Shown here: in pieces, positions 6,237 to 29,690 of the stretch
How positions within the stretch are numbered: position 1 is the stretch's first letter
How the letters are laid out: each line of letters opens with the position of its first letter
Assembly (NCBI GenBank): GCA_947628585.1
Contig: CANRAL010000006.1
Location: 1 to 45,839, forward strand
DNA: 45,839 bases
Direction of reading: 5' to 3'
Source of the DNA: an uncultured Bacilli bacterium
GTDB lineage: Bacteria; Bacillota_I; Bacilli_A; RF39; UBA660
The notes under the pieces: model-generated
Databases searched by the model: none
What the model saw: only the letters and a program-made list of their open reading frames with translations
Told to the model about the DNA's origin: nothing
Program-made: the position numbers and the translations under genes

Positions 6237-7153
6237 CAGTACTCTAATAAAAGAGCTTTGTTAGCCTTTTTCATTACAATTTTTTTAATATCATCTAAAT
6301 GCGAACCATTATCTTTTAAAAATTCACTTCTTTCAAAATTAACGTTACATAAACATTCTATTAACATAAGAATGTAATAATCATCTTTAGGTAATTCTCT
6401 TAATTTATTATTATCTATTGTTTCATTTATTACTTTTAATAAATTTAGCTCATTATTACTAAGTTTTCTTTTAGCTTTTTCGCAAGTTAAATAATAATAA
6501 CTATCTAAATAAAGCATTTCTATAAACATAGGTTTATAATATTTAAACTCTTCTATAGAATTAAAATAATAATTTATAATATTAAAAAAGTCTTTATTTT
6601 CCTTAATTAATTTAATAAGTATATCATCTTTTAAAATAGTATCACTATAATCACAATAATCTCTAACCGTAAATATTAAATTAACAAATTTTTTAGTTAC
6701 TAATTCATATTCTTCATTATCTATATACCATGTATCTAACCAAAGAATATTTTCATAGCAATCAAAGTTATCTTTAATTAAATCAATTAAATCCTGATTA
6801 AAAATTATTTTATAATAATTAGTTACTAAGTAATATTCTAAATCGTTATTTTGACTAATAAATTCTAATAAATTTTTAATATCTAAAGTTTCTACTAAAT
6901 TAACAAAGTCATATTCTTCAAAAACATAGTCATCTATTTGCAGAGCATAATTATAATTATATAATATTATATGTAATAAATTTCTTTTCTTTTTAAAACT
7001 TAAATCATAATTAACAGTTATAAAAGGAACAATAATATCCATATAATATTCATTTAAAAAATCATTTTTCTTTTTTTCGTTACTCGCAGCAATAACCGAT
7101 GCCAGTAAGTATTCTAAATCTTTGTCAATATTTCCGTTTAATAATAAGTCCAT
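6233..7153 (-). CDS. hypothetical protein, predicted helical
   Basis: 306 aa ORF, no recognised domain; convergent with the XRE gene, stops overlapping. Confidence 0.55.
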   Translation of the reverse strand: MDLLLNGNIDKDLEYLLASVIAASNEKKKNDFLNEYYMDIIVPFITVNYDLSFKKKRNLLHIILYNYNYALQIDDYVFEEYDFVNLVETLDIKNLLEFISQNNDLEYYLVTNYYKIIFNQDLIDLIKDNFDCYENILWLDTWYIDNEEYELVTKKFVNLIFTVRDYCDYSDTILKDDILIKLIKENKDFFNIINYYFNSIEEFKYYKPMFIEMLYLDSYYYLTCEKAKRKLSNNELNLLKVINETIDNNKLRELPKDDYYILMLIECLCNVNFERSEFLKDNGSHLDDIKKIVMKKANKALLLEYC

Positions 7154-7247
7154 AATCTCACCAATCTTTATATTTAAGTATAATATATTATTTTAGATTA
7201 TTTTGCAAGAATGAAATAATAAAACATATAATTATTTAGGTGAAGTT

Positions 7248-8018
7248 ATGAAATTCTTTAAATATTTAGGAATTATATCAATTATGGTTTTTAGTTTTTA
7301 TTATACGGATAAGATTGCAAATTTTGTATTAGAGAAAAATAAACTATATCAGGAAATTGACAAAGTTAAAGATAACTATAGGGTTTCAAGTGTATCGGCA
7401 ACAATTGATAATGAATATATTATTCCCGGATTAATGGGAAAAGTAGTTAATGTTAAGGATAGTTATTACAACATGAAAAATTTAGAAGTCTTTAATGAAT
7501 ATTATTTAGTTTATAGTGATGTTTATCCCGATGTTTCTTTAGATAATAATATAGATAAAATTATTAAACAAGGTAATCCTTTCAAAAATAGTATTGCTTT
7601 AGTTATAGAAAATGATCAAAATATTATTAATTATTTGGTTAAAAATAAAATTAAAGCCGATGTATTAATTACTTTAGAAGAATATTATAAACATCCTAAT
7701 TTAGAGTTAATTAATAATGATAAAAATAATTATGATAAGTTAGAAAGTTTATTAAATAATAGCAATTTAAATAAAAACTTATGTATTATTAATAATGATA
7801 TAGAAGAAATTTGTCGAAAAAATAAAAAATATTTAATTACTACGGAAGTATTAGATAATAATAGTTTTTTAAATTTAAAAAATAATATTCAAAGGGGAAA
7901 TATTTATTTAGTAAAAAAAGAAATGAATTTAGAAAATTTAAAATTATTTATTAAAGATATTAAATTTAAAGATTTAAATATAGTATATTTAAGTGATTTA
8001 ATTAGTGAAGAAAATTAA
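7248..8018 (+). CDS. membrane-anchored protein, possibly a degenerate polysaccharide-deacetylase (NodB) fold
   Basis: N-terminal TM; IALVIENDQNIINYLVKNKIKADVLITLEEYYKHPNLELI resembles a NodB layout without catalytic motifs. Confidence 0.4.
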   Translation: MKFFKYLGIISIMVFSFYYTDKIANFVLEKNKLYQEIDKVKDNYRVSSVSATIDNEYIIPGLMGKVVNVKDSYYNMKNLEVFNEYYLVYSDVYPDVSLDNNIDKIIKQGNPFKNSIALVIENDQNIINYLVKNKIKADVLITLEEYYKHPNLELINNDKNNYDKLESLLNNSNLNKNLCIINNDIEEICRKNKKYLITTEVLDNNSFLNLKNNIQRGNIYLVKKEMNLENLKLFIKDIKFKDLNIVYLSDLISEEN

Positions 8019-10347: not shown

Positions 10348-12096
10348 ATGCTAGGAAGAGTAATTGAAATACATAATAATTATTGTTATATAGAAAAAAA
10401 TAATATTAAAGCTAATATTATTAATTTGTATGTAAAAATAATTAATGATAATGAAATATATATTGGAGAAGTTACTAATATTAATCCCCAATATATAATT
10501 ATTAAATTATGTGGAGAAATAATTAATAAGCATTTTATTTTTGGAATTCGTAAAAAACCAAATATAGATAATGAAGTATATTTATTAAATAATGAAGAAA
10601 TAAACATATTATTTGGAATTAATGATTATATAGCTAAAAAAAGTTTATACATAGGTAAGAGTTCTTTATATGATAATTATCCTATATATGCTAATATGGA
10701 TAATTTATTTAGTAATCATTTAGTAATATTAGGTAATACTGGTAGTGGTAAATCATGTGGATTAGCTCGTATTTTACAAAATTTATTTTATAAAAAAGAT
10801 GCTAAAGCTTTAAATGCTACTTTTATAATTATTGATGCTTATGGTGAATATAAAAATGCTTTTAGTAAAATAAATTTTGTTCATCAAGATTTATATTATA
10901 AAAACTATACTACAGATTATAATTCTACGGATAAATTAATTGAAATTCCTTTATGGTTATTAAGTTTAGATGATATATGTCTTTTATTAGATGTTGATGA
11001 TAAGAATCAAATCCCTATTATTGAAAAAACTTTAAAATTAGTAAATGTCTTTTTAAATAATAATGAAAATCAAATTAATTATCAAAATAGTATAATTGCT
11101 AGTGCTTTATTAGATATTTTAATTCAAGGTAATAGTTCATCTCAAATTCGAGATCAAGTATTTTCGGTATTAACAAGATATCATACTAAAGATTTAAATT
11201 TGGATACCCCAATATATTTACCTGGTTATACTAGACCTTTAAAACAATGTTTAATGATTGATAAAACGGGTAAAATTTCGGATATTGAATTAGTAACTAA
11301 ATTTTTAAATAAATTTGTTTTAGCGGATATGAATTTAGATTTACCAGATAAAAGTTTTAAATATACTTTAAAAGATTTATTATATGCATTTGATTTTGCT
11401 TTAATAGATGAAGGTTTATTAAATGATCAAGAAATTTATAGTTTATCTCATAGTTTAAGAGTAAAATTAGCTAGTATTGTAGATAGTGAATTAAATAATT
11501 TTTTTCAATTTGAGGAATTTTTTACTTTAGATGAATTTATCTATAATTTAACACATAAAGATAAAGAAAAAGCCCAAATAATAAATTTAAATTTAAGTAA
11601 TATAGATGATCGTTTTGCTAAAAATATTGCTAAAATATATGCTAAATTATTTTTTGATTATAATAAAAGTAATCATAATCATTTAGATAATCCTTATCAT
11701 ATTGTTTTAGAAGAAGCTCATCGTTATGTTCAAAATGATAATGATGTTAATATTTTAGGTTATAATATTTTTGAAAGAATTGCTAAAGAAGGAAGAAAAT
11801 ATGCTGTATTACTTGATTTAATTAGTCAAAGACCAAGTGAATTAAGTGAAACGGTATTATCTCAAGTTAACAATTACATAATTTTTAAAATAACTCATCC
11901 TAGAGATATTGAATATATTAAAGGAACTATTCCTTATTTAGATGAAGAAACTATTGAAAAAATTAAAATTTTACCGGTGGGTAATTGTTATTTGTTTGGA
12001 CCATCCTTTATTTTACCAACTATAGCTAAAGTTGATATGGCAACTCCAGCTCCATTAAGTGAAAGCCCAAGCATATCTAAAGTTTGGTTTGATTAA
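10348..12096 (+). CDS. HerA-like (DUF87) ATPase
   Basis: HAS-barrel-like N-terminus; Walker A LGNTGSGKS, FIIIDAYGEY, VLEEAHRYV, RIAKEGRKYAVLLDLISQRPSELS. Confidence 0.85.
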   Translation: MLGRVIEIHNNYCYIEKNNIKANIINLYVKIINDNEIYIGEVTNINPQYIIIKLCGEIINKHFIFGIRKKPNIDNEVYLLNNEEINILFGINDYIAKKSLYIGKSSLYDNYPIYANMDNLFSNHLVILGNTGSGKSCGLARILQNLFYKKDAKALNATFIIIDAYGEYKNAFSKINFVHQDLYYKNYTTDYNSTDKLIEIPLWLLSLDDICLLLDVDDKNQIPIIEKTLKLVNVFLNNNENQINYQNSIIASALLDILIQGNSSSQIRDQVFSVLTRYHTKDLNLDTPIYLPGYTRPLKQCLMIDKTGKISDIELVTKFLNKFVLADMNLDLPDKSFKYTLKDLLYAFDFALIDEGLLNDQEIYSLSHSLRVKLASIVDSELNNFFQFEEFFTLDEFIYNLTHKDKEKAQIINLNLSNIDDRFAKNIAKIYAKLFFDYNKSNHNHLDNPYHIVLEEAHRYVQNDNDVNILGYNIFERIAKEGRKYAVLLDLISQRPSELSETVLSQVNNYIIFKITHPRDIEYIKGTIPYLDEETIEKIKILPVGNCYLFGPSFILPTIAKVDMATPAPLSESPSISKVWFD

Positions 12097-12175
12097 AGAT
12101 TAATAATTGCAAGGAATAAAATAATATGCTATAATTTTTTTGTGAAAAAAACTAAAAAAGGCAGGTGAATTATAA

Positions 12176-14416
12176 ATGTTAGATGGACTTGAAAAATTTG
12201 TAAAATCTTTTCTTTTAAGTTTAGATGCTATCGTTTATAATTTGATTAGCTGGTTTTATGATATATTTTTATTTTTAGCTAATGATTTAAATGTCTTTAC
12301 TAATGAAGATTATGCCGATATAGTAAAAAGAATTTATATTATTTTAGGAATTGTAATGCTTTTTGTATTATCTTATTCTTTACTTAGAGCCGTAATTAGT
12401 CCCGACGAATATTCTAAGGGGGATAAATCACCTGTTAATATTATCAAAAATGTATTAATTTCCTTAGTTATAATTGCTGTTTTACCAACAGTATTTGATA
12501 TAGCAACAAGAGTTCAAGGAACTATTTTAAAACAAGATGTAATAGGAAAAATTATAATAGATGGTGCTACTGAAAGTGATGATGCAATTAAAAATGGTGG
12601 TAAAACAATTGCTGTTCATGTTTATCAAGCTTTTTTGTATCCAACTTCATTTTCTAGTGAAAGTGGTAGTGTAAGCGAGGGCGAATCAGCTTTAGCGGTA
12701 ATTAATGAAGATATTCTAGCGGATGAAACTAGCTTTTTTGCTTTTAATGGTGAATATAAAGGTTATGATGTTCCTCAATTAATAGTAGATGATGAAATTA
12801 CGTATTTATATATTATTCCTATCATTGCTGGAGGCTTTGTTTTATGGTGCATTTTGTTATTCTGTTTTGATTTGGCTATTCGTGTTATAAAATTAATTTA
12901 TTATCAAATAATTGCTCCAGTTGCTGTTGTTTGTCGAGTTTTACCCGGCAATAAAGGTAAAAGCGTATTTAGTAATTGGCTGAAATATACAATAAATACT
13001 TACCTAGAAGTATTTATTCGAATATTTGTAATGTATTTGGGAGTATTTATAATAACTTTATTAGTTGATAAATTTCCAGATATTCTTTCTCTTGGCCAAA
13101 ATTCAGGACTAGATGTTGTTCAAAGATTATTAGTTCAAGCCTTTCTTATTATGGGTGTTATTGCCTTTATTAGACAAGCTCCAAAACTACTTCAAAATGT
13201 CTTTGGTTTTGAAACCGGTGGCTTGAATTTAGGATTAAAAGGATTATCAAGTAGATTAAGTGAAGGCGGTTTTTATGCAGCTCGAAATGCCATTACTACT
13301 ACTCCTAAAGCATTAGCTAGAAGAGCGCGGCATGCATTTAATAGTTATAAAGAAACTAAAGGTCAAAAGCCACTTAGAAGAGTTATGAATGGTGTAGGTG
13401 GTACATTCAGTACAATTTTTGGTTCAATGGGTGCTGGCTTTAGCTCCCTTTCTGGTGGCTTTAATGCTAAAAATGGAAAAGAAGCCAAAGAAGCTCAAGA
13501 AAAAACTCTTCAAAATATGGCTAATAAGCAAGCTGAAAGAGATAAATATTGGGCTAAGCATGGTAACACTCTAGGCGGTGTTATTATGGGTCGTGCTCAA
13601 GATTCGATTCATTCTTTTATGGGATTAGATGTTGCAGCATATGATCGAAAAATTGAGGAAGCAAATTCAGTTGTTAAAGGTGATGATGATTACAGATCGG
13701 AAATTGAATCTTTTATAAAAAAATATTTTACAAATTCTGCTATAGTTTCAAAGATGGTAGATGAAAAAGGTAAAACTACATTTAAAGGGGGAAATGCAAG
13801 CGAATTAGCTGCTATATATGAAAATGAGTTTTCTGGTCAATCGCTAGCAACTATTCAAAGAGAAATAGAAAGGCGAAAAGAGGAAGTAAGTCATAGAGAT
13901 TATGATGCTTTAGCTAGAGAACAAAAGATTAAAGAATTAATGGATAAAGATCAAAGTCTAACTCGCCAAGATGCCATTTCTAAAATAGATTCTGATGAAA
14001 TTAAAAAATTATCTCAACAAATGGCCATGGCCGATTCTAATCGAGTAGCAAATTTGGATAGTATGTATAGTCAATTATATAAAGCAACTGTTACAAATGT
14101 TGGTAATATTGTTTCTGAACTTATGCAACCTGATGGAAGAGTTAAAGATTTTGGTGATATAGAAAACGGAGGTATAGCTGGTAAAGAATTCTTTAGAATT
14201 GCTAAACAACAAAAAATTGCTGAGGCAATTTTTGAAAAATCTACTATTGAATATGTAGATCCATCTACAGGAAAGCGGTTAGATGTCAGTAAAAATAAAC
14301 CTGGTCAATTTGCTGAGTTTATGGACGATGCAGCATCTATTGCTAAAAATGTTGAATTTGACCTTAATTCAAAAAAACAACAATATATTGAAAAAAATAG
14401 TACGGATAAAAAATAA
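12176..14416 (+). CDS. VirB6/TrbL-like polytopic membrane T4SS protein
   Basis: 746 aa with several TM segments then a long soluble C-terminal domain; directly upstream of PrgI and VirB4. Confidence 0.75.
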   Translation: MLDGLEKFVKSFLLSLDAIVYNLISWFYDIFLFLANDLNVFTNEDYADIVKRIYIILGIVMLFVLSYSLLRAVISPDEYSKGDKSPVNIIKNVLISLVIIAVLPTVFDIATRVQGTILKQDVIGKIIIDGATESDDAIKNGGKTIAVHVYQAFLYPTSFSSESGSVSEGESALAVINEDILADETSFFAFNGEYKGYDVPQLIVDDEITYLYIIPIIAGGFVLWCILLFCFDLAIRVIKLIYYQIIAPVAVVCRVLPGNKGKSVFSNWLKYTINTYLEVFIRIFVMYLGVFIITLLVDKFPDILSLGQNSGLDVVQRLLVQAFLIMGVIAFIRQAPKLLQNVFGFETGGLNLGLKGLSSRLSEGGFYAARNAITTTPKALARRARHAFNSYKETKGQKPLRRVMNGVGGTFSTIFGSMGAGFSSLSGGFNAKNGKEAKEAQEKTLQNMANKQAERDKYWAKHGNTLGGVIMGRAQDSIHSFMGLDVAAYDRKIEEANSVVKGDDDYRSEIESFIKKYFTNSAIVSKMVDEKGKTTFKGGNASELAAIYENEFSGQSLATIQREIERRKEEVSHRDYDALAREQKIKELMDKDQSLTRQDAISKIDSDEIKKLSQQMAMADSNRVANLDSMYSQLYKATVTNVGNIVSELMQPDGRVKDFGDIENGGIAGKEFFRIAKQQKIAEAIFEKSTIEYVDPSTGKRLDVSKNKPGQFAEFMDDAASIAKNVEFDLNSKKQQYIEKNSTDKK

Positions 14417-14438
14417 TATATAGAAAGGATAAAAAGGT

Positions 14439-14765
14439 ATGAATAATAATTTTATAATTCCTGCAAATACTAAAAAATCTCAATTGATATTGGGATTCTT
14501 TACGCCTAGTGATTTAATAATATTTGGTACAGGGGTATCATTAACAATAATTTTGCTTTTATTTATGCAAGATGCTAGTTTTATTGAGTTAGTATTTATT
14601 TTACTACCTGCTTTAATAACTGGCTTTCTGGTTATGCCGGTGCCGCATTATCATAATATATTACAATTATTAACTAATATTATTACTTTTTATAATGGAA
14701 GAAGACGTTATTATTGGAGAGGATGGTGTGTAAGAGATGAATACGGAGACGACAAAACTAAATAG
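14439..14765 (+). CDS. PrgI/VirB3-like T4SS inner-membrane protein
   Basis: FIIPANTKKSQLILGFFTPSDLIIFG...VPHYHNILQLLTNIITFYNGRRRYYWRGW; 108 aa. Confidence 0.8.
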   Translation: MNNNFIIPANTKKSQLILGFFTPSDLIIFGTGVSLTIILLLFMQDASFIELVFILLPALITGFLVMPVPHYHNILQLLTNIITFYNGRRRYYWRGWCVRDEYGDDKTK

Positions 14766-15306
14766 TAAAATAGAATCTAAATACTCAGAAAATTGGTTAC
14801 CAGTTAAGCAAATAATTAATGGTATGATTATTTTGGATAGTGGAGAGTTTGTTACCGGAGTTAAAGTTGCTCCTAAAAATATATTTATTATGGATAATGG
14901 TATGCAACAAAATACTATAGCTAATTTGCGAAATTTGTATAATTCTATTGATTATGAATTTTGGTTATTAATTGCTGATCGACCTGTTGATATTGATGTT
15001 TATTTATCTCGTTTACAAATTTTATATAATAATGCTACCAATGGAGCTATTAAGAAATTAATACTACAAGATATAAATAAAGCTAATTTATTTATGAGTG
15101 CTGAATATAACGTAGTGGATACGGAATATTACATTTTGTTTAAAGAAAAGAAAATAGAATTAGTTCAAAAAAAATTACATAATTTAATGAGTGGATTAGC
15201 TACTGCAGGTTTACAATCAACTCAAACATCCAATAATGATTTAAGAATGGTATTAGATAATTATTTAAATGGTGGAGAACAAACCACTTTTGGAACGGTG
15301 ATGTAA
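14737..15306 (+). CDS. VirB4 N-terminal-domain protein (separate ORF)
   Basis: NWLPVKQIINGMIILDSGEFVTGVKVAPKNIF...; overlaps prgI by 29 bp and ends immediately before the VirB4 ATPase ORF. Confidence 0.65.
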   Translation: MNTETTKLNSKIESKYSENWLPVKQIINGMIILDSGEFVTGVKVAPKNIFIMDNGMQQNTIANLRNLYNSIDYEFWLLIADRPVDIDVYLSRLQILYNNATNGAIKKLILQDINKANLFMSAEYNVVDTEYYILFKEKKIELVQKKLHNLMSGLATAGLQSTQTSNNDLRMVLDNYLNGGEQTTFGTVM

Positions 15307-15307
15307 T

Positions 15308-17095
15308 ATGAGTAGATTAAAAAGTGAAATAGCCCCTAAAGGGATGGAATTTAAACCAACAGAATTTGTATTAGGTGGAAAATATTCTACAATTTTAACA
15401 ATTGTAACTTTTCCTAAAAATATTATGTTAGGACATTTGTCAAACTTAACAAGTATTCAAGGAGTTAAAGTAGCAATAAAACATATTCCTATTCAATTTT
15501 CTGTTTTACAAAAAATGTTAAATAAAGAAATAGCTGATTTAAAACAAAGATATCAAAATGAAAAAGATCAAACAATGCAAGAAATGATACGTCAAGATTA
15601 TGAATCATTGGAACAATTTATTCAAATGCTAGCAGCAACTCAAGCTCGAATTTTTGATTTTCAAATGCATATTTTAGTAACGGCAGATAGTAAAGAAGAA
15701 TTGGAATTAAGAAAGATGAATGTTAAATCTTTGCTTGAAGGTTTAGGAATGCGTGCTATTGCCTTGATGTTTGAACAAGAAAAGGCTTTAAAATCTATAA
15801 TTCCTATATTTCCACCTCAAGATATTGAACAAAGAATTGGAACACCTATTCCTTCAATTACAATCGCGGGAATGTATCCTTTTATTTTTGATAGTATTAA
15901 AGACCCTGGAGATGCAACTCTTTTAGGTATTGATTTCTCAGGAGGAGTAATATTATTTAATCAATTTTTATATCAAATTAAAAAAGAAAATAATCGAAAT
16001 AATGCCAATATTATTATTTTAGGTACTTCTGGTAGTGGTAAATCTACGGCAGCCAAATTACTTTTAAGAACGCATTTAAGAAATGGTTGCAAAGTTGTTT
16101 GTGTCGACCCTGAAGGGGAATTAGAAGAAATGTGCCATTCTATTGGTGGTGATTTCTTAGACCTTGGTAAGGGTGGAGAATTTGGAATGGTTAACCCTTT
16201 AGAAATTGTTATTGATGCCGATGAAGAAGAAATTGAACAAGGATTAGGATATACTGTTTTAACTCGTACAATTCAACAATTAAAAGCTTTTATGAAATAT
16301 TATTCTCCTAATATAGAAGAAGATGTTTTAAATATGTTTAGTGAAGTAGTTCAAGATACATATAAACGTTATAAAATAGATTATGAAACGGATTATACAA
16401 AATTAACTAGTAATGATTATCCTACTTTTGATGATGTATATGCAACAATTAAAGGTAGATTACTTTCAATGACTGATGCTACTCATGAACGGGATATTAT
16501 GGAAAGACTTGAACTTAAAATAAGACCATTAGTTAAAGAATTAAGATATTATTTTACTGGTCATACTACCTTAAGTATTCAAAGTGATTTTATTGCTTTT
16601 AATATTAAAGAATTAATGAATAGTGATGAAAATATTAAAAATGCATTATTCTTTAATATTTTAAAATATGCTTGGGGTTTATGTTTGGATAAAGATATTA
16701 ATACCATAATGTATGTTGATGAAGCTCATGTTTTGTTATCTACTCATAATGAATTGGGTGCTGAATTTTTAGCTCAAATTCAAAGAAGAAGTCGAAAGTA
16801 TAATACAGGTACTATTATAATTACGCAACAACCAACTGATTTCGCAGCTCCAAATTTAATTATGCATGGTAAAGCAATATTTGATAATGCCGCTTATTAT
16901 TTAATAATGAATTTAAGAAAACAAGCTGTGGAAGATTTAGGTAAATTGATTGATTTAAATGAAAGTGAAAAAGAATCTATTAAGTATTATAATCAAGGAG
17001 ATGCCTTATTTGTCTGTGGTAATCGAAGAATGCGTATTCAAGTTGTAGTTAGTCAAGAAGAATTAGATTCATTTGGTTCTGGAGGCGGACTATAA
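15308..17095 (+). CDS. VirB4/TraC-family T4SS ATPase
   Basis: Walker A ILGTSGSGKSTAAKLLLRTHLRNGCKVVCVDPEGE; MYVDEAHVLL; QRRSRKYNTGTIIITQQPTDF. Confidence 0.92.
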   Translation: MSRLKSEIAPKGMEFKPTEFVLGGKYSTILTIVTFPKNIMLGHLSNLTSIQGVKVAIKHIPIQFSVLQKMLNKEIADLKQRYQNEKDQTMQEMIRQDYESLEQFIQMLAATQARIFDFQMHILVTADSKEELELRKMNVKSLLEGLGMRAIALMFEQEKALKSIIPIFPPQDIEQRIGTPIPSITIAGMYPFIFDSIKDPGDATLLGIDFSGGVILFNQFLYQIKKENNRNNANIIILGTSGSGKSTAAKLLLRTHLRNGCKVVCVDPEGELEEMCHSIGGDFLDLGKGGEFGMVNPLEIVIDADEEEIEQGLGYTVLTRTIQQLKAFMKYYSPNIEEDVLNMFSEVVQDTYKRYKIDYETDYTKLTSNDYPTFDDVYATIKGRLLSMTDATHERDIMERLELKIRPLVKELRYYFTGHTTLSIQSDFIAFNIKELMNSDENIKNALFFNILKYAWGLCLDKDINTIMYVDEAHVLLSTHNELGAEFLAQIQRRSRKYNTGTIIITQQPTDFAAPNLIMHGKAIFDNAAYYLIMNLRKQAVEDLGKLIDLNESEKESIKYYNQGDALFVCGNRRMRIQVVVSQEELDSFGSGGGL

Positions 17096-17128
17096 TAATA
17101 AATTAAATGAATTTTGGGCGGTGAGGTT

Positions 17129-18745
17129 ATGAATAACGAAGCAAATGAAAATAAAGAAAAAAAAGTAGCAACTAGAAGAGTTGTTACTTCTTCGCGTGAA
17201 AATCGTTTATTATATAATCCTAATAATCGGAATAATAATTTAATTGCTCAAAATTATAATGCTAATAATGATTTGGAAGATATAGCTGATGAAGAAGAAG
17301 ATGAAACTGAAGAAGAAACTCAGGAAGAAACTGAGGAAGATAATGAAGAAAAATCTTTAGAAAATGAAGAAGAAAAAGAAGAAAAGAAAGATACTTCTCA
17401 AAAAAAGCCAACTAATATTAAGAAAGAAGTAGCAAGTGATGTTGCAGGAAAATTGTTAGTTAATTTTGGTAAAAAGAAAATATATTTTATTCTAATTTGT
17501 GCGGGTGCTGTATTTTTATTTTTTCTTTTGCTTTTAGCAATGCTTGGTGGATCTAGCTCAAACAATTATAATTCTTATTGCGGTGGAGAAAATGGGGATG
17601 TAATAAGTTTTATAGATACTTGGGAAGGAGAAAGTATGGCTGATACTTGTAGTGATACAGAGTATCGAGGCTATGATATTCATGATGGTACAATATCAAT
17701 TGGGGCTGGGATGACTAATTATGCTATTTCAACTTTAGAAATGGCCCATTATATCGAAGAAAATAATTGGCAAAGCTATTTTAATAAGCAAGGTTCTTTA
17801 TATAGAGTAGATGTTGGTTTATGTGTTCCTAAAGAAATAATTAATAAAATGAAATTACATGTTATAGAAACTACTTTTGGGGCTCATGTAGATGATGTAG
17901 CTATTCGCTTAGGTTTAGTTTTAACTCAATTTCAAAAAGATGCCATTATTTCTTTTAGTTATAATGTAGGTAATGCTTATACAGAAAAAGTATTAACTGC
18001 ATATCAAAATTATGGTTATGCTGGTTTATGGGATGAAATGAAAACTCATACTTGTGCATTTGGTTCTTGTAATCAACCAGGTTTAATGAAAAGAAGAAAA
18101 GCTGAATTTGCTTTATTTGTAACCGGTGATTATGGAGATACTGTAGGTAATTTTTATAACCGAAGTTTAGATAATTATGATGATTATGATTCAGAACATG
18201 TCATGGCTCAAAGAATGGTTTGTAGTCATAGCTCCTCATTTGGAGAATTGTTTGCTCCCCTTGATGAATTTTATTGTTCGGAAGGTTATCATTGGCGGAG
18301 TGTTCATCCAGTTACAGGAGGTAGTAGTCAACACTATGGCCTTGATTTAGGGGTAGGCGGCGTCGCGGGAAAACCTGTTTATGCCGTTCAATCCGGAACT
18401 GTTATTTATGTTTATAAAGATGCAAATTGTTCAATTTATAATAACAGTAATTGTAAAGCTCCTTCATGTGGTAATCAAGTAACAATTATGCATGGTGATG
18501 GAACGCAAACTGTATATTGTCATATGCAATATCAAAGTGTTACGGTTGATGTTAACGATTCGGTAGAAGGCGGTCAAATTATTGGTAAAGTTGGTTCAAC
18601 AGGTTCTTCAACCGGACCCCATCTTCATTTTGGTCTGAAGCTTGCCAATGGGGAATGGACAGATCCATATGATTATTTTAAAGATACCTGGGTTGCTTTC
18701 CACGAAAATGGAATCTTAACCGGTGATTTAAGTAGATGTGAATAA
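17129..18745 (+). CDS. membrane-anchored bifunctional cell-wall hydrolase (GH24-like lysozyme plus peptidase M23)
   Basis: Acidic N-terminus, TM, WEGESMADTC...GTISIGAGMTNY...DAIISFSYNVGN; then HYGLDLGVGGVAGKPVYAVQSGTV...GSTGSSTGPHLHFGL; start ATG 17129. Confidence 0.85.
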   Translation: MNNEANENKEKKVATRRVVTSSRENRLLYNPNNRNNNLIAQNYNANNDLEDIADEEEDETEEETQEETEEDNEEKSLENEEEKEEKKDTSQKKPTNIKKEVASDVAGKLLVNFGKKKIYFILICAGAVFLFFLLLLAMLGGSSSNNYNSYCGGENGDVISFIDTWEGESMADTCSDTEYRGYDIHDGTISIGAGMTNYAISTLEMAHYIEENNWQSYFNKQGSLYRVDVGLCVPKEIINKMKLHVIETTFGAHVDDVAIRLGLVLTQFQKDAIISFSYNVGNAYTEKVLTAYQNYGYAGLWDEMKTHTCAFGSCNQPGLMKRRKAEFALFVTGDYGDTVGNFYNRSLDNYDDYDSEHVMAQRMVCSHSSSFGELFAPLDEFYCSEGYHWRSVHPVTGGSSQHYGLDLGVGGVAGKPVYAVQSGTVIYVYKDANCSIYNNSNCKAPSCGNQVTIMHGDGTQTVYCHMQYQSVTVDVNDSVEGGQIIGKVGSTGSSTGPHLHFGLKLANGEWTDPYDYFKDTWVAFHENGILTGDLSRCE

Positions 18746-18756
18746 AAGGAGAAAAA

Positions 18757-19536
18757 ATGAAAAAAATAGTCTTATGTTTAATAATTATGCTTTGTTTAAC
18801 TGGTTGTAGTATAGAATACAATATAGAAATAACCAAAGATGATTTTAATGAAAGTACTACAATTATGACAGATACGAGAATGACAGAAACTTATCAAAAT
18901 GAAAGTTTAGAAAATATATTATCTAAAATTAGTAATAATTATTATGAACCAATATATTTTAATGATGAAAATTATGATTATTATGTGGGAGGAAAACAAG
19001 ATAACGTAGTTTTTTATGATATTAGTCCCTTTCAAAAAGATTATTTATTAGGAGTAAATTTAAAACATAATTTTAAATATAACGATATATATCGTTCTAA
19101 TATAATTAAAAATTGTTTTAATGAATTAAGTATTCAAAATAGTGATAATTACATTTTATTAAGAACGGATAATAATTGCAAAGCCTTTAGAGAATATTCT
19201 TTGTTAGAAAATATAACTATAAATATTAAAACTTCTTTAGAGGTAATTGCCAGTAATGCTGATAAAGTAGAAAATGGCATTTATACTTGGGTTATAACTA
19301 GGGAAAATTATGGAAATAAGTCTGTTCATTTAACATATAATTTAGGGAATAATAATATTATTGATAATCCAATAGATAATGACAAAGAAGAAGAAAATAA
19401 ACCGGATGAAAAGCCCCAAGAAAGTGAAGAAAGAATTGTTAATAATAAAATGAATAGCTTAATAATAATGATTAGTTTTGGTATTTTAATTATGGTTTTA
19501 ACTATAGTTATTAAACGAAAAAAAACAAGGTTATAG
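18757..19536 (+). CDS. lipoprotein with C-terminal TM helix
   Basis: Lipobox LCLTGC after signal peptide; C-terminal LIIMISFGILIMVLTIVIKRKK. Confidence 0.7.
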   Translation: MKKIVLCLIIMLCLTGCSIEYNIEITKDDFNESTTIMTDTRMTETYQNESLENILSKISNNYYEPIYFNDENYDYYVGGKQDNVVFYDISPFQKDYLLGVNLKHNFKYNDIYRSNIIKNCFNELSIQNSDNYILLRTDNNCKAFREYSLLENITINIKTSLEVIASNADKVENGIYTWVITRENYGNKSVHLTYNLGNNNIIDNPIDNDKEEENKPDEKPQESEERIVNNKMNSLIIMISFGILIMVLTIVIKRKKTRL

Positions 19537-19588
19537 TTGTTAATTAAGAAAATTTTTTGTATAATACTTAAAGAAGGAAGAGGAGTTT

Positions 19589-21721
19589 ATGAAATTTAAA
19601 ATAGATAAAAAAGACTTTATCATGTTTATTATATATTGCATACTTTTATTATATTTATGTGCAATAGCTATTTTAAATTTTACTTCTTTATTAAATGATG
19701 GCGCTTTTTATGGTTTAGTTCCTTTTAAAGCTTTTACTATGCCTTATTTACCTATAACTTTGTTAATGTTTGTTGGGGCTTTAGTAGCTATATTTTCCAG
19801 TGTATCTTCTTATATTTTTAAAAAAGATAAAGGTAAGGGAATTGGCTTAAAATTTAAAACTAAAGAAAGTGATGGCTATGCTAAGTGGGCTGATGAAAAA
19901 GAAATTAAAAAAGGCGAAGATGTTGTAAAAATAAATCGCCTTAGTGATACTTTAGAAGCGGCAGGGATACCTTTAATTAATAATGAAAAAGAAACGTATA
20001 TTGATAATGGGGAATATCATAGTTTAATTTTGGGGTCAACTGGTAGTGGGAAAACTCAAACTATAGTTAAACCGATGGTTAACTTTTTAGCTAAAAAAGG
20101 CGAAAGTATGATTATAACCGATCCTAAAGGGGAAATATATAAATATGCTGCGAATTATTTGAAAAAAAGAGGATATAGAATTATATTATTAAACTTTCGG
20201 GAACCCCAAAATGGTAATGCCTGGAATCCTTTAACTTTACCATACCAATATTATAAAGCGGGAAATGTTGATAAAGCGACGGAATTACTAGATGATATTG
20301 CTTTAAATATTTTATATGATCCTAATAATAAAAGTGATTCGGATTTCTGGGAAAAGAGTGCTGCCGATTATTTTTCAGGATTAGCTTTAGGGCTATTCAT
20401 GGATGCTAAAGAAAAAGAAGTAAATCTTAATAGTATTAATTTAATGAGTACTGTTGGGGAAGAAAGATGTGGAACTAGTCATTATATTAATGAATATTTC
20501 CGTTTCAAAGGTGAAAGTTCTAGTGCTTATATTTTTGCATCTAATACTATTAATGCGCCAACAGATACTAAAGGTGGTATTTTATCTACTTTTAGACAAA
20601 AAATTCGTAAATTTTCAACTCAAGAAAATTTAAGTGAAATGCTATCTTACAGTGATTTTGATTTAAGAAGTATTGGTGAAGGTAAAACCGCCATATTTAT
20701 GGTTATTCATGATGAAAAGAAAACTTATCATAGTTTAATGACTATTTTTATAAAACAATGTTATGAAACTTTAATCGATGTTGCTCAAGAAAATGGAGGA
20801 AAATTACCAATTAGAACAAACTTTATATTAGATGAATTTGCTAATATGCCTCCTTTGCGAGATGTTGATGCTATGATTTCAGCTGCTCGAAGTCGCTTAA
20901 TTCGTTTTACATTTATCATTCAAGACTTTGCCCAACTTAATTCAGTATATGGTGAAGAAGTAGCTCAAATTATTCGGGGTAATTGTGGTAATTTAATTTA
21001 TTTAATTAGTAGTGAATTAAAAGCCTTGGAAGAAATAAGTAAAATGTGTGGAGAAGTTAAAGTAACGGATGAAAAAGATAAAAATGCAACCCGTCCTTTA
21101 ATTTCAATTTCGGATTTACAAAAAATGAAATTATTTGAAGGTATTTTAATTCGTATTCGGAGTAATCCTTTTAAAATAAAATTACAACCAGATTTTAAAA
21201 TTGATTGGGGAATAGAAAGGATTGAAGAACCTTATCCTCAAAGAGTAAAACAACAAGTTGAATTATTTGATTTAAAGAAATATGTTATGGAACAAAGGAA
21301 TAAATTAATGGCTGAACAAGTAACTGATGGTCCGGATATGATGAATCCTTTTAGTAATCCTTTCAATAACCCTTTTAGTAAACCAATGGAAAATCCTTTT
21401 GCGATGCCTAATATGGGATTTAATCCTCAATTAAATGAAAGTGATAAAAATATGCCTAAAAATAATGGGGGATTAGATTTAGATGCTATGCTAAAAGATA
21501 TTGATGAAAAATTAAAAGCATTTGAACTAGAAGAAGAACAAGCTAAGAAAGAAGAAAAAGCTAAATTAGAAATGCCGGAAGAGGAAATGCCAAAAGAAAA
21601 AGTGGAAGAAACGGAAGAAAAACCTAAAATAAATGTTGATGCTGATAGTATTATTGTTAATGAAAATGTTATTTCTGACGATGAATTTTTTGATGATTTC
21701 TTTGATGATGATGACGAATAA
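19589..21721 (+). CDS. VirD4/TraG-type coupling ATPase
   Basis: N-terminal TMs; LILGSTGSGKTQTIVKPMV, MIITDPKGEIYKYAANYLKKRGY, FILDEFANMPPLRDVDAMISAARSR; acidic tail. Confidence 0.93.
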   Translation: MKFKIDKKDFIMFIIYCILLLYLCAIAILNFTSLLNDGAFYGLVPFKAFTMPYLPITLLMFVGALVAIFSSVSSYIFKKDKGKGIGLKFKTKESDGYAKWADEKEIKKGEDVVKINRLSDTLEAAGIPLINNEKETYIDNGEYHSLILGSTGSGKTQTIVKPMVNFLAKKGESMIITDPKGEIYKYAANYLKKRGYRIILLNFREPQNGNAWNPLTLPYQYYKAGNVDKATELLDDIALNILYDPNNKSDSDFWEKSAADYFSGLALGLFMDAKEKEVNLNSINLMSTVGEERCGTSHYINEYFRFKGESSSAYIFASNTINAPTDTKGGILSTFRQKIRKFSTQENLSEMLSYSDFDLRSIGEGKTAIFMVIHDEKKTYHSLMTIFIKQCYETLIDVAQENGGKLPIRTNFILDEFANMPPLRDVDAMISAARSRLIRFTFIIQDFAQLNSVYGEEVAQIIRGNCGNLIYLISSELKALEEISKMCGEVKVTDEKDKNATRPLISISDLQKMKLFEGILIRIRSNPFKIKLQPDFKIDWGIERIEEPYPQRVKQQVELFDLKKYVMEQRNKLMAEQVTDGPDMMNPFSNPFNNPFSKPMENPFAMPNMGFNPQLNESDKNMPKNNGGLDLDAMLKDIDEKLKAFELEEEQAKKEEKAKLEMPEEEMPKEKVEETEEKPKINVDADSIIVNENVISDDEFFDDFFDDDDE

Positions 21722-26388: not shown

Positions 26389-26583
26389 ATGAAAGAAGCG
26401 ACTGGAGAATTAAATATGACTGTTGTAACTGTTGTAGCTATTGCAGCAGTAGGAGCATTCTTTTATGCATTTGTTTGGCCAAGTATCCAAGCAAGTATTA
26501 AGAAAAATACCTGTGAAGTTCAATGTGCTGATACAGAAGGTACATGTTTTGATGAATGTATGGCTGCCGAAGCTGAAGAATAA
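26389..26583 (+). CDS. tiny Cys-rich pilin-like membrane protein (paralogue 1)
   Basis: MKEATGELNMTVVTVVAIAAVGAFFYAFVWPSI then CEVQCADTEGTCFDEC; strong RBS AAGGAGGAG. Confidence 0.7.
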   Translation: MKEATGELNMTVVTVVAIAAVGAFFYAFVWPSIQASIKKNTCEVQCADTEGTCFDECMAAEAEE

Positions 26584-26594
26584 TAGGTAGTTAA

Positions 26595-26834
26595 ATGAAA
26601 GAGGCTACAGGAGAACTAAATAGTACTATTATTGTTGTGGTTTCTATTGGGGTCTTAGCGACCTTTTTTTTCAGTTATTTATGGCCTTCAATAAAACATA
26701 ATTTTGAAAAAGAAAGTCAATGTAATAAAGCCTCATGTGATTGCAGCAGTAAAGTTCGAGAACAAAATGAAGGTTATTGTTTGTGTACTTTAAATAATGG
26801 TGGCGAATCTTTTCGCTGTGTTTATAAAGGATAG
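26595..26834 (+). CDS. tiny Cys-rich pilin-like membrane protein (paralogue 2)
   Basis: MKEATGELNSTIIVVVSIGVLATFFFSYLWPSIK then C...CDCSSK...CLC...C; same N-terminus as paralogue 1. Confidence 0.7.
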   Translation: MKEATGELNSTIIVVVSIGVLATFFFSYLWPSIKHNFEKESQCNKASCDCSSKVREQNEGYCLCTLNNGGESFRCVYKG

Positions 26835-26844
26835 GGATTAAAAA

Positions 26845-27366
26845 ATGAAAGAGTCAATAAGTGCTGTTAGTATATTTCAAATAGTTATCGTATTTATTTT
26901 ACTATTTACGGCGATAATGTGTTTGACTATAAATAATGCTAATGCCTTTGGAATAAAAGACGAAATAACTAATATTATTGAGTTAAGTGATGGAGATTTT
27001 TTAGATGCTTCTGGAAACTTAAGTCAAAAAATAGTTGAAACGATTGATCTTAGTAATTATCGAAATACGGGAAATTGTGGAGATGGTTATGTTGGTTTTC
27101 AAAGAAATGGATCTCGGATAAGTGATGATAAGGGAGCATCTGTTTGTATTAAATGCGTAGCTGTTTCTAGTGAAGTAGAAGATTATCTCGCAGGTATTTT
27201 AGGTGCCGAAAATGTTGCTAAGCAAGGAGAAAATTTAGAAGGTTATTATTATCAAGTAGAAGTATTTTATTCTTTAGATGTGCCAATAATTAAACAAGCA
27301 TATAATTTTAAAACTAAAGGCGAAACACGTCTATTGTATGGAAATACTCCAGGGTTGTGTAGCTAA
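26845..27366 (+). CDS. TadE-like/pseudopilin-like protein A
   Basis: MKESISAVSIFQIVIVFILLFTAIMCLTINNANAFGIKDEITNIIE; C-terminal soluble domain with NTGNCGDGYVGF. Confidence 0.55.
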   Translation: MKESISAVSIFQIVIVFILLFTAIMCLTINNANAFGIKDEITNIIELSDGDFLDASGNLSQKIVETIDLSNYRNTGNCGDGYVGFQRNGSRISDDKGASVCIKCVAVSSEVEDYLAGILGAENVAKQGENLEGYYYQVEVFYSLDVPIIKQAYNFKTKGETRLLYGNTPGLCS

Positions 27367-27824
27367 TGAGAGAAACGTTTGGTACAACATGGACATTCCA
27401 ACTAATAATAGTTTTTATTTTAATTTTTTCTTGTTTCCTATCATTAGTTATTAGTTATTCCAAAGCTTACTCTTTAAAAAATGAATCCCTAACAATTATT
27501 GAAAAATATGAAGGACTTACTACCGAATCTGGTGAAATAATGAATAATTATTTAAGAGAAAATGGTTATCGAACGACTGGCAAATGTCCTGAAGGATGGC
27601 TAGGAGCTGTTGATTTAGATGGCACTTATGAAAAAGTAAAAGATAGTACTCGTTACTATTATTGTCTAACCGAAGAAAGTGAAAAAGATAAAATTCATTA
27701 TAATATAAGATTGTTTTATAAATTTAATTTACCTGTTATAGGGGATATAACTACATTTAAAATTGAAGGAACAACAAATGATTTCATAGGAAATAATAAT
27801 CGAATAACAAAGGGAGTGTCATAA
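27366..27824 (+). CDS. TadE-like/pseudopilin-like protein B (paralogue of A)
   Basis: MRETFGTTWTFQLIIVFILIFSCFLSLVISYSKAYSLKNESLTIIE; TTGKCPEGWLGA matches NTGNCGDGYVGF; TAATG overlap with preceding ORF. Confidence 0.55.
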   Translation: MRETFGTTWTFQLIIVFILIFSCFLSLVISYSKAYSLKNESLTIIEKYEGLTTESGEIMNNYLRENGYRTTGKCPEGWLGAVDLDGTYEKVKDSTRYYYCLTEESEKDKIHYNIRLFYKFNLPVIGDITTFKIEGTTNDFIGNNNRITKGVS

Positions 27825-28822
27825 TGAATGGGATAAATGTAATTGTTTCAAATAAATATCAACAATTATTATTAAATTTAGAAATTGATGTTATTAAGCA
27901 TATAACCGGTGAATTTACAGTTGAAGATTTAACTCAAGAATTTACTAATTTTTATTTTAATAAAATGATTATTGATATAACGGCAATTAAAAATTATGAA
28001 AATATTAATATTATTCAAGCATTATCCCTTAATTTTGATGCTAGCAAAATTATTTTATTATTAGATGATTCTAATGTTGTTAATTCTCCCAAATTTTTAT
28101 CCCAATTAGTATCAATGGGAATTTATAATTTTACTAAAGATGTTCAAAGTATTAAATTTTTAATTGATAATCCTAATAGCTACAAAGATGTAGCTAATAT
28201 TCAACAACTAAATGGGGGAGAAGGAAGAGTAGTATTAAATAGTACCGCTTATGATAATAATCGAGGTTTCATTGGTCAAAGGGTAATTGGTTTTAAAAAT
28301 TTAACTGATGGGGCTGGATCGACAACTTTAGTTTATTTATTAAAGCAACAATTAGAAAGAGAATATAAAGTTAAAACCGTAGAAATTAATGGTAATGATT
28401 TTAAGTTATTTAAAGATCGTAGTTTAGTTTCGATTAATAGTAGTGATTTAAATAATTTTATTCAAGAAAATAGTGATGCTGAAGTTATTCTTGTCGATAT
28501 TAATGGCGAAGTTGAAGGATTAATAGATGAAGTAATTTATTTAGTTGAACCTGGTTTAATTAAATTAAATAAATTAGTATCACAAGATAGTGGTATTTTT
28601 GAAAGATTAAATGGTAAAAAAATTGTTTTAAATCGTAGTTGTTTAACACAAGAAGATGTGGAAGATTTTGAAAAGGAAAGTGGCAGTAAAATATTCTTTA
28701 ATATTCCTAATTTGGATGATAAAGTAAATAATCATGCAATCTTAAATACCTTTTTACAAACTTTAGGATTTAGTCGAATGGATAATGAAAATTCTAATGG
28801 ATTATTTAGCATTTTTAAATAG
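27824..28822 (+). CDS. CpaE/TadZ-like protein with degenerate Walker A
   Basis: Receiver-like N-terminal half, then VIGFKNLTDGAGSTTLVYLLKQQL...VKTVEINGNDF and VILVDINGE as in MinD/CpaE ATPases, but P-loop lysines absent. Confidence 0.6.
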   Translation: MNGINVIVSNKYQQLLLNLEIDVIKHITGEFTVEDLTQEFTNFYFNKMIIDITAIKNYENINIIQALSLNFDASKIILLLDDSNVVNSPKFLSQLVSMGIYNFTKDVQSIKFLIDNPNSYKDVANIQQLNGGEGRVVLNSTAYDNNRGFIGQRVIGFKNLTDGAGSTTLVYLLKQQLEREYKVKTVEINGNDFKLFKDRSLVSINSSDLNNFIQENSDAEVILVDINGEVEGLIDEVIYLVEPGLIKLNKLVSQDSGIFERLNGKKIVLNRSCLTQEDVEDFEKESGSKIFFNIPNLDDKVNNHAILNTFLQTLGFSRMDNENSNGLFSIFK

Positions 28823-28831
28823 GAGGTAGAT

Positions 28832-29179
28832 ATGGATTTTTGTTATAAAACAGCATCTATTTGGCAAGTTGTTGGTTACGCTTTTTTAGTTTTAAAAATA
28901 TTAATACCTGTAATAATAATTATATTAGGAATTGTTAATTTTAGTAAAGCAATTGCCTCTAATGACGATAAGGCTATATCTAAAGCTGGAGGTTCATTAA
29001 TAAAAAAAATTATTATAGGTATAGTAATATTTTTTATTCCGACAATTATAAGTGCTATTTTTAGTCTTTTGGGATTATTTATTGATTATAAATCGGATTT
29101 TTTAGTATGTAAAAACTGTGTTTTAAGTCCTAAACAATGTGATACTTCGTACAAAGGGGGAATTATTCCAACGGAGTAA
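28832..29179 (+). CDS. VirB2/TrbC-like two-TM protein 1
   Basis: IWQVVGYAFLVLKILIPVIIIILGIVNFSKAIASNDDKAISKAGGSLIKKIIIGIVIFFIPTIISAIF; Cys-containing tail CKNC. Confidence 0.6.
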   Translation: MDFCYKTASIWQVVGYAFLVLKILIPVIIIILGIVNFSKAIASNDDKAISKAGGSLIKKIIIGIVIFFIPTIISAIFSLLGLFIDYKSDFLVCKNCVLSPKQCDTSYKGGIIPTE

Positions 29180-29285
29180 TTCCATAGATTTTTAAGGATT
29201 TTTTAGTTTACAGTAATGCGAATATTTTATTGACAACTATTGGGATTTAAGTTAAAATAAAGACATGAGAAGGAGAGATGTATAA

Positions 29286-29690
29286 ATGGGTGGTAATATT
29301 CAAGCCGATAATTTAGGACATGCTGTTGGTGGATTTTGTTATGATACTGTAACTTTATGGCAATTTGTTGGTATGGTTTTATTAGTGCTAAAAATAGTTA
29401 TTCCAATCATTTTAATTATTTTGGGAATGATTGATTTAGGAAAGGCTGTTATTTCTAGTGAAGATAAAGCTGTTAGTAAAGCTGCAACTAAATTATTATG
29501 GAGAATTGTAGCTGCTATTATAATTTTCTTCATACCGACAATAGTATCTGCTATATTTGGTTTAGTTGGAAGTTTTAATGAAGAAGTAAAAGAAGATTAT
29601 AATATTTGTCGAACCTGTATCGAACATCCAAATCGATCTAGTGAAAATGAAGGTTCTTGTAAATATTATATGAATGGCGTTAGTATTTAA
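29286..29690 (+). CDS. VirB2/TrbC-like two-TM protein 2
   Basis: LWQFVGMVLLVLKIVIPIILIILGMIDLGKAVISSEDKAVSKAATKLLWRIVAAIIIFFIPTIVSAIF; tail CRTC; paralogue of the preceding gene. Confidence 0.6.
   Translation: MGGNIQADNLGHAVGGFCYDTVTLWQFVGMVLLVLKIVIPIILIILGMIDLGKAVISSEDKAVSKAATKLLWRIVAAIIIFFIPTIVSAIFGLVGSFNEEVKEDYNICRTCIEHPNRSSENEGSCKYYMNGVSI

Follow-up and report, generated by a model that had tools for sequence, protein, structure and literature searches.

A probably domesticated type IV secretion system, often clustered with a Tad pilus, in an order of uncultured gut Bacilli

The T4SS genes of the window

The window, i.e. the whole stretch of DNA analyzed here (45,839 nucleotides, contig CANRAL010000006.1 of an uncultured Bacilli bacterium), is one entire contig (C6) of a 1.24-Mb draft genome (59 contigs, ∼95% complete). 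It encodes a type IV secretion system (T4SS) and, further downstream, a block of prepilin-like, TadZ-like, and pilin-like proteins. The gene order, common strand, and ATPase motifs of the T4SS run reported in the original prediction for this DNA were seen again upon re-reading of the open reading frames (ORFs) and their translations. The list of components has been revised: VirB6, VirB3, VirB4, the hydrolase, the lipoprotein, and VirD4 stand, a HerA-like ATPase is removed, and the pilin/TadZ block and a Tad partner, both previously overlooked, are added. The T4SS run consists of the following genes.

12176..14416, + strand: VirB6/TrbL-like polytopic membrane protein, 746 amino acids (aa) (NF045848 MMCAP2_0566 family, 7e-12; NF045889, 5e-9; TrbL_4, 2.7e-4, below cut-off; conserved place before VirB3)
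14439..14765, + strand: VirB3 (TcpE/PrgI family), 108 aa (family profile; always directly 5′ of VirB4N)
14737..15306, + strand: N-terminal half of VirB4 (VirB4N), a separate protein of 189 aa (NF045975 positions 94-276, 1.3e-11)
15308..17095, + strand: ATPase half of VirB4 (VirB4C), 595 aa (NF045975 positions 295-891, 5.7e-100; Walker A GTSGSGKST, Walker B region VDEAH)
17114..18745, + strand: VirB1-like cell-wall hydrolase with a cytoplasmic/transmembrane (TM) N terminus, a GH24 lysozyme, and an M23 peptidase (Peptidase_M23, 2.4e-23; Phage_lysozyme, 5.5e-8)
18757..19536, + strand: lipoprotein with an LTGC lipobox, a C-terminal TM segment, and an LppM-like fold (model pLDDT 79; best Foldseek match LppM 2nc8, E 6e-8)
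19589..21721, + strand: VirD4 coupling ATPase (NF045973 CD1115 family, 1.5e-87, 294 bits versus a cut-off of 250)

That VirB4 is encoded by two ORFs, as originally proposed, is borne out by the finding that its halves match successive parts of NF045975 and that the gene is split in 81 of 81 loci, with VirB4N and VirB4C always adjacent (spacing of -4, -1, or +1 nt). This split is ancestral. It is no hallmark of the group alone, because VirB4 is likewise divided into N and C ORFs on plasmids and at T4SS loci of other Bacilli. The TcpE/PrgI profile matches five of seven members of the VirB3 family (best 5.7e-5), the window copy being weak (0.03). The predicted structure of the lipoprotein, which was considered as a hidden VirB8, matches LppM instead. 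VirD4 ends with an acidic C-terminal tail of the FFDDFF type, some columns of which do not vary among 10 divergent VirD4s; this may be a docking tail. A second VirB4-like match in the genome, on contig C50, was discarded because the protein is FtsK. Five loci (L101, L104, L106, L114, and L119) have other genes 3′ of VirB3-VirB4N-VirB4C, with VirD4 and the hydrolase not nearby, and in these the T4SS parts seem dispersed.

Distribution, inheritance, and the relaxase question

Order-wide counts were made in a sample of 146 genomes. Core VirB4 is present in 126 of these, from ∼65 genera of the order, core VirD4 in 132, and both together in 125, i.e. VirD4 is found in 125 of 126 VirB4-bearing genomes. 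Further VirD4 matches in two genomes (G148 and G160) are of the type of integrative and conjugative elements (ICEs) and fall outside the 132. Within the genus, the VirB4 ATPase half is encoded by 28 of 30 genomes (own included) with at least 82% identity, and it is found in five of six sampled other genera with ∼70% identity; elsewhere in the class there are only distant ICE-type or plasmid-type VirB4 copies. A scan of genome contigs yielded 547 encoding stretches, the best 80 of which are all from uncultured bacteria, labeled mostly Bacilli or Tenericutes and including Candidatus Caccenecus avistercoris. These labels, taken with the small, AT-rich genomes, suggest that the order is RF39 of GTDB. 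No relatives were found in viral contigs.

The T4SS genes are essentially single copy, and their identity to the window's own genome tracks that of PheT (Spearman 0.79, n = 30; 0.67 within the genus, n = 24). When compared with a relative (G006), VirB4C shows 0.05 nonsynonymous (dN) and 0.78 synonymous (dS) substitutions per site, giving a dN/dS of ∼0.06, whereas values for VirD4 and VirB6 are 0.13 and 0.4, respectively. The T4SS genes are thus under purifying selection. A patchy distribution across relatives and a relaxase close to the window had been named beforehand as signs of an ordinary ICE. The distribution seen, which follows PheT, is not patchy, and neither a PF03432 nor a MobP3-like relaxase turned up in the genome.

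No relaxase was found in the draft genome, which was searched for PF03432 and MobP3-like proteins (other MOB classes were not searched). Among relatives, PF03432 matches occur in 7 of 30 sampled genomes, a patchy pattern when set against the near-universal T4SS. One relative from the same genus (G010) harbors two ICE-type loci with an unsplit VirB4 and a VirD4 (L049 on contig C5 and L050 on contig C6 of that genome), with a MobL relaxase (7.6e-26) in the former and weak relaxase matches in the latter. In a VirB4 tree, a comparison that the original prediction had called for, the ICE VirB4s of the order form a separate clade and are unsplit. Because the T4SS is near-universal, mostly single copy, under purifying selection, and tracks PheT, and no relaxase was found, it is best regarded not as an ICE but as a domesticated, vertically inherited system. 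The original prediction of a domesticated chromosomal T4SS without a relaxase is therefore strongly supported within the scope of a search for MOBP-like types. That the window holds an ordinary ICE, or a decayed remnant of one, lying there by chance is highly improbable: although its components come from the families that make up conjugative elements and true ICEs do occur in relatives, the genes are intact and their distribution, selection, split VirB4, and lack of a detected relaxase all argue against it.

The Tad partner and related systems

In other genera, the T4SS is part of a larger cluster on one strand. This starts with a sortase-region/adhesin-like protein, a DUF5411 TadE-like protein, CpaB, TadA, TadB, and TadC, continues with a short prepilin, two larger prepilins, a TadZ-like protein, a pilin, and often further long pilin-like proteins, and ends with VirB6, VirB3, VirB4N, VirB4C, M23, the lipoprotein, VirD4, rhodanese, and DedA. 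In 48 genomes of the order, TadA precedes VirB4 on a common strand at a distance of 6.7-14.2 kb. This joint cluster is probably the ancestral arrangement. In the window's own genome it is split, with the T4SS at 12176-21721, the prepilins to pilins at 26389-29690, and TadABC and CpaB on contig C2 (TadA at 6468-7508 of that contig, G000:C2:6468-7508). The downstream block of the window consists of the following genes.

26389..26583, + strand: short prepilin-like protein 1, leader MKEATG, one TM segment (leader and position; family directly 3′ of TadC in most clusters)
26595..26834, + strand: short prepilin-like protein 2, leader MKEATG (leader and position, as for protein 1)
26845..27366, + strand: prepilin-like minor pilin candidate 1, 173 aa (in other genera, homologues are encoded after TadC and before TadZ)
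27366..27824, + strand: prepilin-like minor pilin candidate 2, 152 aa, leader MRETFG (homologues placed as for candidate 1)
27824..28822, + strand: TadZ/CpaE-like protein with an N-terminal receiver-like domain and a ParA/MinD-like domain with a degenerate P-loop (model pLDDT 74; position after the prepilins)
28832..29179, + strand: T4SS pilin-like (VirB2-like) protein with two TM segments and two conserved Cys (PF18895 T4SS_pilin; window copy 0.05)
29286..29690, + strand: second T4SS pilin-like (VirB2-like) protein (same family; adjoins VirB6 in other genera)

The prepilin-like proteins carry M[KR]E..G leaders and the genome encodes an A24 prepilin peptidase; no pilin family matches the prepilins. 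The best folds for the model of the TadZ-like protein include ParA/MinD/SRP-type NTPases (E 1e-5 to 1e-3, with low TM-scores), and sequence family searches with this protein gave nothing significant. Searches of the TadZ, TadB, and TadC sequences against the PDB returned nothing usable, and Pfam nothing informative on members of the three families. Profile comparison (hhalign) of TadB and TadC with plasmid TadB and TadC, the latter being a T2SSF protein (4.9e-8), gave a probability of 97%, versus 16% for the crossed control. As judged from sequence, TadA is a member of the VirB11/CpaF family: a homologue in locus L039 matches TIGR03819 (2.4e-30) and VirB11 (2.7e-33), and the TadA family profile matches CpaF (8rkd, 3e-19). 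CpaB has a weak RcpC/CpaB match. DUF5411 (PF17424) is the TadE-like protein of the Tad cluster (L065:8320-10131 and L066:6469-6870); the copy in the window's genome forms a fusion with an M15 D-Ala-D-Ala peptidase.

The VirB2-like family is matched by PF18895 in 13 of 22 members (best 6e-7). Arrays of 5-7 pilin-like genes (70-819 aa) are found 5′ of VirB6 in six loci (L132, L135, L150, L152, L155, and L157), and long pilin-like proteins in three others (L166, L172, and L181) combine a signal peptide and a large ectodomain with a VirB2-like hairpin at the C terminus. In the group with VirB4 only, the pilin genes are kept together with VirB6-VirD4 in five loci, four of which show no Tad genes nearby, whereas two TadA-only loci (L173 and L174) have kept Tad and have no pilin. 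The PF18895 pilins therefore belong to the T4SS.

TadA is present in 121 of the 146 genomes. With TadA scored at E ≤ 1e-50, 112 genomes have both VirB4 and TadA, 14 have VirB4 only, 9 have TadA only, and 11 have neither (Fisher p 2.7e-5, kinship not corrected for). Since there are clades with the T4SS alone or Tad alone, these are two cooperating modules and no single obligate machine.

Immediately upstream of the T4SS lies a gene that the original prediction had put forward as a possible extra motor of the system.

10348..12096: HerA-like ATPase (HerA-like fold, 157 bits versus a cut-off of 800)

This gene is beside the T4SS in 2 of 81 VirB4 loci (the window and L087) and in one more among the whole-genome loci (L047). 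Such a distribution rules it out as a T4SS component, and the role of extra ATPase falls instead to the TadA/VirB11-family protein on another contig. The GC content of the HerA gene is 21%, versus 28-30% for the T4SS genes, and no NurA/SIR2 partner domain was found among the scanned T4SS-side proteins adjoining it. The gene is limited to three neighboring species and is perhaps a defense gene.

Pairing of Tad with a T4SS is not unprecedented. Both were noted on Sulfobacillus plasmids in a 2019 paper, and plasmids with T4SS, Tad, and relaxase include pEYLC1.2 (NZ_CP082335), CP141730.1, pTPHSE1 (NZ_CP154620), and pY0017/pL15. These Bacillota plasmids resemble the present system in VirB4, VirB6/TrbL, VirD4, cell-wall hydrolase, TadA-like ATPase, and TadB/TadC-like proteins, and pEYLC1.2 also shares CpaB, a ParA-like ATPase, a split VirB4, and a PF18895 pilin (5.9e-12). 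They differ in being plasmid-borne, with a relaxase (MobP3, MobP2, or MobL-like) and partition genes, whereas the window system is chromosomal, has no detected relaxase, and is core to its order; the VirB4s are ∼26-29% identical. The zrk4 plasmid (CP074574) also carries T4SS and Tad, and an unannotated neighbor of its VirD4 without a Pfam match (L203:5987-7717) has a PHLHFMLY segment that looks like an HUH relaxase. In a genome from another family (L052, G040:C17), TadA-TadB-TadC-VirB6-VirB3-VirB4C-VirB4N form one operon with the VirB4 halves reversed, and after it come several proteins that carry repeated motifs at their C termini. The VirB4 tree, which carries long-branch warnings, requires the Tad label to change three times or more. 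A single Tad-T4SS VirB4 lineage is therefore not supported; the pairing recurs or modules have been exchanged.

Among other known systems, ICEs and plasmids of the MPF_FATA type, including those of Mycoplasma/Spiroplasma with Mbov_0397 (the best NCBIfam match of VirB4), have the same VirB1/B3/B4/B6/VirD4 set. The present system differs in that no relaxase was found, it is not mobile, VirB4 is split, and it has a Tad partner. The Tad side resembles a Tad/Flp pilus in its TadA, which matches CpaF, its TadB/TadC, its weak RcpC/CpaB match, and its TadZ-like protein, but the cluster is fused to a T4SS and the Glu5 motif usual in Flp is missing from the prepilins. By analogy, the closest functional parallel is the T4SS of Patescibacteria (Saccharibacteria), which is chromosomal, relaxase-free in most, and accompanied by arrays of VirB2-like PF18895 pilins (PMC12102498, PMC12857230). 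Shared features are a monoderm envelope, a small genome, vertical maintenance, no relaxase found, and PF18895 pilins that are often arrayed, and the arrays described here are strikingly like those of Patescibacteria. Patescibacteria are a different phylum, where the T4SS functions in epibiotic growth, and Tad in the same cluster has not been reported there.

Proposed function and alternatives

We propose, with a probability of roughly 0.6, that this is a domesticated Gram-positive T4SS, a vertically inherited core feature of the order (probably GTDB RF39), ancestrally clustered with a Tad pilus and used in contact-dependent, non-conjugative translocation. With no relaxase detected and its genes usually beside those of a Tad adhesion pilus, this T4SS probably serves cell contact and not gene transfer. 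The Tad filament, probably with the large adhesin-like protein of its operon, would contact a neighboring cell or surface, and the GH24-M23 hydrolase would open the wall. VirB6, VirB3, and VirB4 (N + C) would form an envelope conduit together with the pilins, into which VirD4 may feed a substrate, most likely protein. The machine would thus work as has been proposed for the T4SS of Patescibacteria. Several points weigh against this proposal. Profile searches found no VirB8/TcpC match among the T4SS cluster proteins, no substrate or effector was identified, and the relaxase search covered MOBP-like types in draft genomes. In addition, the modules lie in separate places in the window's genus, and obligate cooperation is at odds with the 14 genomes that keep VirB4/VirD4 without a strong TadA match and the 9 that have TadA without core VirB4. 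Variable downstream genes were considered as effectors, but those read are housekeeping genes (phosphoketolase, RecG, CTP synthase) or encode surface proteins. A bolder version, in which the Tad motor (TadA with TadB/TadC) and the relaxase-free T4SS are one device of a new monoderm class, used order-wide to take from or deliver to neighbors and independent of Patescibacteria, is tentative and rather doubtful.

It is unlikely that the T4SS serves pilus or surface display only, assembling diversified pilin arrays with no intercellular translocation. Such a role would suit the arrays of up to seven genes 5′ of VirB6, many of which encode large ectodomains. VirD4, however, is not needed for pilus assembly alone, and its near-complete retention argues for a translocated substrate and against pure display.

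A DNA uptake (competence) machine handing DNA to ComEC appears quite unlikely. ComEC is encoded in the window's genome and most relatives. Transformation can proceed through Tad pili (PMC4322843) and, in Helicobacter, proceeds through a T4SS-derived system (PMC13395361). The genome also encodes a separate PilB-type ATPase, and with this and ComEC DNA uptake would be possible without need of the T4SS machine. Moreover, VirD4 is retained here, although DNA uptake in Helicobacter is not known to require a coupling protein for export. In Patescibacteria, deletion of comEC has no effect on viability, whereas the T4SS, which is essential in co-culture, and type IV pili are essential (PMC12857230).

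Continued conjugation, with the substrate provided by an unrecognized relaxase elsewhere or by mobilizable elements in trans, is decidedly unlikely. The MobP2/MobP3 relaxases on plasmids that share this T4SS + Tad layout and the conservation of VirD4 count in its favor. Against it are the absence of PF03432 or MobP3-like genes from the window's genome and the patchiness of relaxases in relatives, compared with the near-universal T4SS.

A search of one open-access library of papers found none with both RF39 and VirB4. According to a recent review, VirB11 homologues are universally missing from Gram-positive T4SSs, which also have no VirB2 pilins except in Patescibacteria (PMC12857230). The monoderm T4SS described here, a core trait of a large order of uncultured gut bacteria, has VirB2-like pilins. 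Encoded along with it are a VirB11/TadA-family ATPase and a Tad platform, and relaxase-bearing plasmids carry similar Tad + T4SS clusters. If our proposal is true, this would be the second time, independently and outside Patescibacteria, that small-genome bacteria have domesticated a conjugation machine, and a contact-dependent life of RF39-like gut bacteria would become testable.

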